Of a stretch of 64,000 nucleotides of DNA, positions 18,813-20,830 are shown piece after piece. A program made the position numbers and the translations under genes. Every line of letters begins with the position of its first letter. The first letter of the stretch is position 1. The DNA is from Acidimicrobiales bacterium (lineage in GTDB: Bacteria > Actinomycetota > Acidimicrobiia > Acidimicrobiales > Iamiaceae): positions 1 through 64,000 of the forward strand of contig JAODBM010000184.1 in NCBI GenBank assembly GCA_025463985.1, in the 5' to 3' direction. The notes beneath the pieces are model-generated. The model saw nothing but the letters and a program-made list of their open reading frames with translations, was not told the origin of the DNA and ran no database searches.

Positions 18813-19414
18813 CGGGCGAGGACGGCGTGGTCACCATGTCCCGCCGCCGCGACGTGCGCTGGGATGATCCGCTGATCGGTGCGGCCCTCGCCCGCCAGAT
18901 GAGCGGCCTCGACTACCTGCAGGCCGTGGCCGACGGGCGCATCGCCGCACCACCGGTGGCCGCCCTGCTCGGCATGAGCATCGACCGGGTCGCGCCGGGG
19001 CGGGTCGACTTCCGGCTCGACATCGGCGAGCACCTCTACAACCCGATCGGCTCGGTCCACGGCGGCATCTTCTGCACGCTGCTCGACTCGGCCATGGGCT
19101 GCGCCGCGCACACGACCCTTCCCCTCGGGCACGCCTACACGACCCTCGAGCTCAAGGTGAACCTCGTGAAGCCGCTGACGGTCGCGACGCCCTGGGTCGT
19201 GGCCGAGGGTGAGGTCCTCAGCGCCGGCCGTCGCGTCGTGACCGGCAGCGGCCGCATCGTCGGTCCCGATGGCGCGCTGTACGCCCACGCCACCACCACC
19301 TGCCTGGTCTTCCCGGTCGATCCCCCATCCGCCGACCCTGCCGCGAGCGTGGCGCCGGCGCCGCCAGCAGGGCTGCGAGGGTTCAGTCGGGGCGATGGAC
19401 GCGGATCGCGATGA
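18809..19414 (+). CDS. PaaI-type hotdog thioesterase
   Basis: YNPIGSVHGGIFCTLLDSAMGCAA; ATGA overlap with MFS. Confidence 0.9.
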   Translation: MTGEDGVVTMSRRRDVRWDDPLIGAALARQMSGLDYLQAVADGRIAAPPVAALLGMSIDRVAPGRVDFRLDIGEHLYNPIGSVHGGIFCTLLDSAMGCAAHTTLPLGHAYTTLELKVNLVKPLTVATPWVVAEGEVLSAGRRVVTGSGRIVGPDGALYAHATTTCLVFPVDPPSADPAASVAPAPPAGLRGFSRGDGRGSR

Positions 19415-19856
19415 CCGTCTCGCCCGGGACTCGGGAGCAGCGCAGCTCCAGCGACCGGTCGAACCCGCCGCCGGAGCCAGGGGTGGCTTTTGCCGGCAGC
19501 TGGAAGGCGGTGGCGTCACAGGGGATGGTCATGGCCGCCGCTCGTTGCCCGTAGGCACCGAGGACTTCGGACCACACCGTCTTGGGGGCGCCCCGGAACG
19601 CGAACGTGCGGTCTACGTCGAACGCCGAGCTCGATGATTCGAGGCGACGCGCGCCGGCGGGAAGGTTGGCAACCATCTCGTCGGCCGCCTGCACCAAGAG
19701 CTTCGTCTGCCCGTTGGACGCGCCCGGATTGAGGTAGCGCACGCCCAGCAGCGCGACCGCGATCAGGCCGCCGACGAGCGCGAGGACCGCCACGGTCGTG
19801 ACCACGCGACGCGCCAGCGTGGGGAGCAGCTCGAACGGCGGATCACTGCCCCGCAT
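19383..19856 (-). CDS. membrane-anchored hypothetical protein
   Basis: N-terminal TM then extracytoplasmic domain. Confidence 0.6.
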   Translation of the reverse strand: MRGSDPPFELLPTLARRVVTTVAVLALVGGLIAVALLGVRYLNPGASNGQTKLLVQAADEMVANLPAGARRLESSSSAFDVDRTFAFRGAPKTVWSEVLGAYGQRAAAMTIPCDATAFQLPAKATPGSGGGFDRSLELRCSRVPGETVIAIRVHRPD

Positions 19857-19939
19857 CGCCGAACGCTGCCCGCGCCATTCGCCCCACGCGCGGGACGTTA
19901 CCGCCCGCCGACAGCGCTGACCCGCCACACCCCACCCCC

Positions 19940-20062
19940 GAACTGGGCGGGGTTGCGGTCGCCGGGACCGCCGAGTCCCCGCCCAGTTCCAGATGGGGGG
20001 CCACCCAACCCCGAACTGGGCGGGAGTGCGGTCGCCGGGACAGCCGAGTCCCCGCCCAGTTC
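19940..20062. repeat. two tandem ~73-bp hairpin units
   Basis: GAACTGGGCGGG...CCCGCCCAGTTC at 19940/19989 and again at 20013/20062; copy 1 has an inner GCGGTC-gccgg-GACCGC stem. Confidence 0.85.
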
Positions 20063-20110
20063 CAGCGGGGGGTGGTGGACGACCGGCGAGGGATGACGCA
20101 GGATGGCCCG

Positions 20111-20830
20111 ATGGCGGAGGCCGTGGGGGCTGAGAACCGGGTCGAGCGGCCGTCCACGAGGCGCACCGCCGCGCTGATCGTCGCGGGAATCGTGGCCGGC
20201 CTGGCGGTGGTGGCCCTGCTGGTCGTGACCGTCGCGTTCGACCGATACACGATCCCCAGCCAATCGATGGTGCCGACGGTCGGGCCCGGTGGGTCGGTCC
20301 TGACCCGCCCTTCGTCCGGCCGCGGTCTTCATCGCGGCGACATCATCGTGCTGCGACCACCGCTGTCGCTGGGCCGGTCGCTCGGGGTCGACCAGGTGAT
20401 CGGCCGCGTCGTCGCCATCGAGGGCGACACCGTCTCCGCGACCGGTGGCCACCTCCAGATCAACGGTGCGGATGCCAACGAGGCGTACCTCCCGAGCGGC
20501 ATCACGACGCCGGACATCCCGCAGACGCCCGTGCCCGCCGCGCACGTGTACGTGCTCGGTGACAACCGGACGAACTCCCAAGGGTCCCGGATCTTCGGGC
20601 CGGTGCCGTTCGCGAGCGTGAACGCTCGGGTCGTGCGGATCGGCGCGCCGAGCAGCATGGCCATGCTCGGCGGAACGCTGGTGCTCTGCCTGCCGCTGAT
20701 CTTCCTGCTCGCCGCCCGTCGACGGTCTCGACGGCAGGGCCGGGAACCGAGGCGCGGCCGCGAGCGGCGCGAGCGATCCGAGTACGCCGACTGGGCCGAA
20801 GCACGGCGATCGGAGCGCCGCCGGAGCTGA
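20111..20830 (+). CDS. S26 family signal peptidase, atypical
   Basis: TM then IPSQSMVPTVGPGG, RVVAIEGDTV, VYVLGDNRTNSQGSRIFGPVP; start MAEAVGAENR chosen. Confidence 0.85.
   Translation: MAEAVGAENRVERPSTRRTAALIVAGIVAGLAVVALLVVTVAFDRYTIPSQSMVPTVGPGGSVLTRPSSGRGLHRGDIIVLRPPLSLGRSLGVDQVIGRVVAIEGDTVSATGGHLQINGADANEAYLPSGITTPDIPQTPVPAAHVYVLGDNRTNSQGSRIFGPVPFASVNARVVRIGAPSSMAMLGGTLVLCLPLIFLLAARRRSRRQGREPRRGRERRERSEYADWAEARRSERRRS

Follow-up and report, generated by a model that had tools for sequence, protein, structure and literature searches.

The stretch of DNA analysed here (64 kb, hereafter the window) carries two copies of a nested hairpin at positions 19940-20062, as had been proposed in a preliminary description. 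Both units (19940-19989 and 20013-20062, no strand assigned) measure 50 nt, lie head-to-tail in direct orientation with a start-to-start period of 73 nt and are 94% identical over 50 nt. The 23-nt linker between them (19990-20012) is first G-rich and then C-rich. Their outer stems, GAACTGGGCGGG/CCCGCCCAGTTC, are perfect (13 bp in unit 1 and 12 bp in unit 2). The 6-bp inner stem described earlier was confirmed as intact in unit 1 (GCGGTC/GACCGC), while unit 2 has GACAGC and thereby one mismatch. The units score 67.9 and 70.2 bits with our covariance model and, folded as DNA, reach z-scores of -5.1 and -3.1. Within the 64-kb window the arm pair CTGGGCGG..CCGCCCAG is confined to these two sites, with 0.00 occurrences expected from shuffles.

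On one side of the pair, a gene for signal peptidase I (20093-20830, plus strand, Pfam match to Peptidase_S26) begins with an ATG ∼31 nt beyond the end of unit 2; a GTG at 20072 is an alternative start. On the other side, a minus-strand ORF (19383-19928, likely start near 19856) probably encodes a small membrane-anchored protein. A likely membrane helix and good codon usage were observed in it; the codon score supports coding, and a Pfam search matched no family. The proposed location between a minus and a plus gene is correct for the signal peptidase side, and for the minus side it holds if this ORF is real. No T-run follows the window hairpins and a scan for T-tailed terminators made no call, while a sigma-70 promoter scan returned nothing. 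The divergent placement upstream of the signal peptidase gene is atypical of the clusters described below, since this copy lies ∼31 nt before an ATG and faces a probable minus-strand gene, compared to the usual sites behind stop codons. The window copy forms an array of two units within the signal peptidase gene's leader; it probably has no dedicated function, and it may change local expression.

The unit is not a peculiarity of this locus. A search of the 4.19 Mb assembly for the 12-nt arm gave 55 exact matches, compared to 1 for the reversed control, and a BLAST search with the unit against its own genome gave 109 matches, both strands counted. Searching with a covariance model trained on 48 units yielded at least 150 genome matches, again with both strands of the palindrome counted, and in the fetched loci we counted ∼116 units in 52 clusters of 1 to 6 units each. 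The unit is a near-palindrome with the ends GAA(C)/(G)TTC and the core GGTCGccnnggCGACC, and its length is almost invariably 50 nt (identical arm spacing in 74 of 76 first-pass units). The same genome harbours a second subfamily, GAATGTGGAGTAGAAGCGG..CCGCTTCTACTCCACATTC, with 79 arm matches and ∼40 hairpins (one at L178:1501-1550), which has the GAA/TTC ends and a CGGTCG/CGACCG core in common with the first and differs in the mid-stem. At four of its loci the upstream gene is predicted to stop on a TAG within the unit. With more than 100 units and relatives in other genera, the alternative considered earlier, a unit found only here, unconserved and devoid of any mobility signature, does not apply.

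Neighbouring units in arrays are 87% identical compared to 73% between arrays, and direct orientation aligned better in all 64 of 64 comparisons. Since adjacent units are head-to-tail and more alike than units of different clusters, local tandem duplication is indicated. The array periods fall into two main classes, 59-63 nt for the majority of arrays and 72-75 nt for a minority that includes the window array, and these are about one helical turn apart. This spacing, together with the recurrence of a period near 62 nt in other genomes, would suit arrays of protein-binding DNA, for nucleoid or cooperative binding, in which helical phase sets the distance between units. However, 19 of the 52 clusters consist of one unit, the linker sequence is not conserved, and the intragenic arrays have in-frame periods of 60 and 63 nt, both multiples of three, so that spacing obeys other constraints too. 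We consider protein-binding arrays extremely unlikely as the main explanation.

For the position relative to genes we used a purpose-written codon-usage gene finder, the output of which was corrected by hand for the window and the intragenic cases. Of the 52 clusters, 48 are intergenic (21 convergent, 22 tandem and 5 divergent, the window included), three are intragenic and one lies at a contig edge. The 62 neighbouring gene pairs of the window comprise 45 tandem, 9 convergent and 8 divergent pairs, and convergent gaps are thus enriched among the clusters. The median distance from a cluster to the neighbouring stop codon is 16 nt and to the start 53 nt in this genome; in other genomes the values are 24 nt and 92 nt. 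Both the enrichment and the short distance to stop codons would be expected if the hairpins were selected bidirectional terminators, or stabilisers of mRNA 3' ends, between convergent genes, and flanks read toward the unit are C-rich and G-poor, which also fits. On the other hand, the window hairpins lack a T-run, stem mutations in copies go without compensation, some units lie in frame within genes, other convergent gaps contain no unit, and the window copy is upstream of a gene. Selection for termination or 3'-end stabilisation is therefore an unlikely origin of the repeat, while a terminator role as a by-product of position is possible.

Units were found in 10 of the 24 genomes of the family (its own included) and, under stricter filters, in 28 of 397 genomes of the order. 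The 49-50 nt architecture recurs in these related genomes, where the stems are species-specific and units often form arrays that again have a period near 62 nt; a strict-pattern search returned an Acidimicrobiia MAG as the only named relative. In another carrier, loci L100, L104 and L105 of G002 hold a subfamily with a CGGGGCC..GGCCCCG-like core and unchanged ends and length. Between lineages, two-sided changes occur in 21 of 23 stem pairs among 22 aligned representatives, with 63 two-sided cells compared to 22.4 after shuffling (none of 500 shuffles as high); because a structure-aware model picked the representatives, these values lean toward pairing, but the margin is still large. Among the copies of the genome itself, covariation is absent: units of mixed orientation did no better than shuffled columns, and oriented units were 80.9% paired compared to 83.2% after shuffling. 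Founders thus remain palindromic while copies decay, and pairing that is kept between lineages but not among copies fits a mobile repeat, whereas RNAs under individual selection would not be expected to show it. A structured RNA, one of the two possibilities raised initially, is not supported for individual copies, as pairing within the genome is no better than that of shuffled columns, an Rfam scan gave only chance matches far below the gathering scores, and units occur inside coding frames. Neither subfamily matched viral contigs, and the element matched no plasmids.

The intragenic units are the most informative. In its own genome, dnaE2 (error-prone DNA polymerase), hypF and an acyl-CoA dehydrogenase gene each contain one or two units in frame, and in the relative G013 units are in frame within two genes. 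All 8 intragenic units from these five genes of two genomes are read in one common phase and give ELGGxxVAxATxxPPS-like peptides. For five genes and three phases, such agreement is expected by chance in about 1 of 80 cases, which suggests, although it does not prove, a non-random reading phase. A dnaE2-type match was obtained in 21 other family genomes (G010 and G022 having distant DnaE matches only); 19 of the 21 lack the insert, and the closest of these homologues are 19 residues shorter. Of the remaining two, G015 is unclear and G019 has a different unit: its dnaE2 (L200 / L247) is extended in the same loop by a palindrome of 50 nt that belongs to the G019 subfamily and recurs elsewhere in that genome. 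This looks like an independent insertion into the same permissive loop. In HypF, an insert of ∼40 residues separates the zinc-finger domain from the YrdC domain, and homologues lack it. For the acyl-CoA dehydrogenase, the insert region of homologues on plasmids falls outside the alignment; here and in the G013 genes, insertion is proposed from the open frame.

Further marks of mobility were sought at the flanks. Direct repeats around the units are no longer than those of swapped flanks, so that the target-site duplication considered in the preliminary description was not found. As the family search covered a single genome from this genus, it yielded no empty site at the nucleotide level. Insertion into old hairpins was also considered and rejected, as locus-specific pairing of flanks did not exceed that of swapped flanks.

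REP, BIME and REPIN elements with their RAYT enzymes are known from enterobacteria, Pseudomonas and Stenotrophomonas (PMC2817692, PMC3116915). The repeat described here resembles them as a short palindrome with a common motif and many copies, mainly extragenic near gene ends and in local arrays, that keeps its palindromicity as lineage sequences change (PMC2817692, PMC12306157). It is therefore a REP in the broad sense, and one might regard it as a canonical element mobilised by RAYT. However, no match to the RAYT domain (Y1_Tnp, PF01797) was obtained in its own genome (83% complete) or in 10 other carriers, among them G002 and G014, two single-contig genomes in which the repeat has 42 and 32 matches. 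Only G254, the last of the 12 carriers searched, has Y1_Tnp, in two genes of which neither is flanked by units. Moreover, the 50-nt unit exceeds the 14-40 nt of E. coli REPs (PMC12306157), the arrays are head-to-tail and not alternating, the GTAG tag was not seen at units, and some copies are intragenic and in frame. With PF01797 missing in 11 of 12 carriers and the G254 genes unflanked, we withhold the canonical REP label, and RAYT-driven mobilisation appears very improbable. A strong hairpin, GTAAGAACGCGGGGTCTGACCCCGCGTTCTTAC, was observed in G254 immediately 3' of a Y1 transposase gene (L174:2361-2411). From the preliminary suggestion of a REP/MITE-like dispersed element, dispersal through the genome and into other genera is retained; without a target-site duplication the element does not qualify as a classical MITE, and without a RAYT gene it does not qualify as a canonical REP.

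We consider a mobile palindromic repeat, non-autonomous and lineage-specific, the likely identity of this element, because it combines genome-wide dispersal, a strict 50-nt length, head-to-tail arrays, related subfamilies whose stems changed in a compensatory manner between lineages, a position behind stop codons and in-frame units that are missing in homologues. The best reading is that it works like REPs and Rickettsia palindromic elements and behaves as a piece of small mobile DNA, not as a regulatory RNA. For dispersal, the extruded hairpin would be the substrate of an enzyme supplied in trans, arrays may arise by slippage or unequal recombination, and selection would remove most insertions from coding and promoter DNA. 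Some points speak against a mobile repeat: array periods of 59-63 or 72-75 nt are conserved, which mobility alone does not explain, PF01797 was detected in only 1 of 12 carriers, and neither a target-site duplication nor an empty site at the nucleotide level was found.

Palindromic elements inserted in frame into protein genes are best known from Rickettsia, and a 2024 review considered a similar route of protein evolution conceivable in other prokaryotes (PMC10969869). Like the Rickettsia elements (PMC10969869), the repeat occupies intergenic sites and also lies in frame in unrelated genes with one preferred reading frame. It differs from them in its length (50 nt compared to ∼150 nt), in the small share of its ∼50 clusters that is intragenic, in its tandem arrays and in its unrelated host lineage. 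With bacterial MITEs such as ERIC, Correia and QMITE2 (PMC10969869) it has in common that it is non-autonomous, has inverted repeats and sometimes lies in 3' untranslated regions; unlike MITEs, it shows no detectable target-site duplication, and the transposase survey, which covered PF01797, found no parent insertion sequence. The element is thus a candidate second case of in-frame palindromic repeats, in an unrelated lineage, with insert-free homologues and with one DnaE2 loop that is used in two lineages. The missing RAYT gene makes the means of dispersal a question of its own, and single-contig carriers with many copies are available to address it.

A literature search for Acidimicrobiia together with palindromic intergenic repeats found nothing, and the main text of RepRanger gives Acidimicrobium ferrooxidans only in the form of stem-loop counts. 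Tentatively, and as a possibility that we rate somewhat below even, the repeat could represent a previously undescribed, transposase-orphan class of palindromic repeats of one bacterial order. Its stem would change while remaining palindromic and ∼50 nt long, its arrays would be helically phased, and it would repeatedly have put harmless in-frame peptides into conserved proteins, in two genera independently into the same DnaE2 loop. In one further genome (G004, loci L079, L085 and L091), a different short palindromic repeat, CGCAGAATCTGCG, flanks the units.
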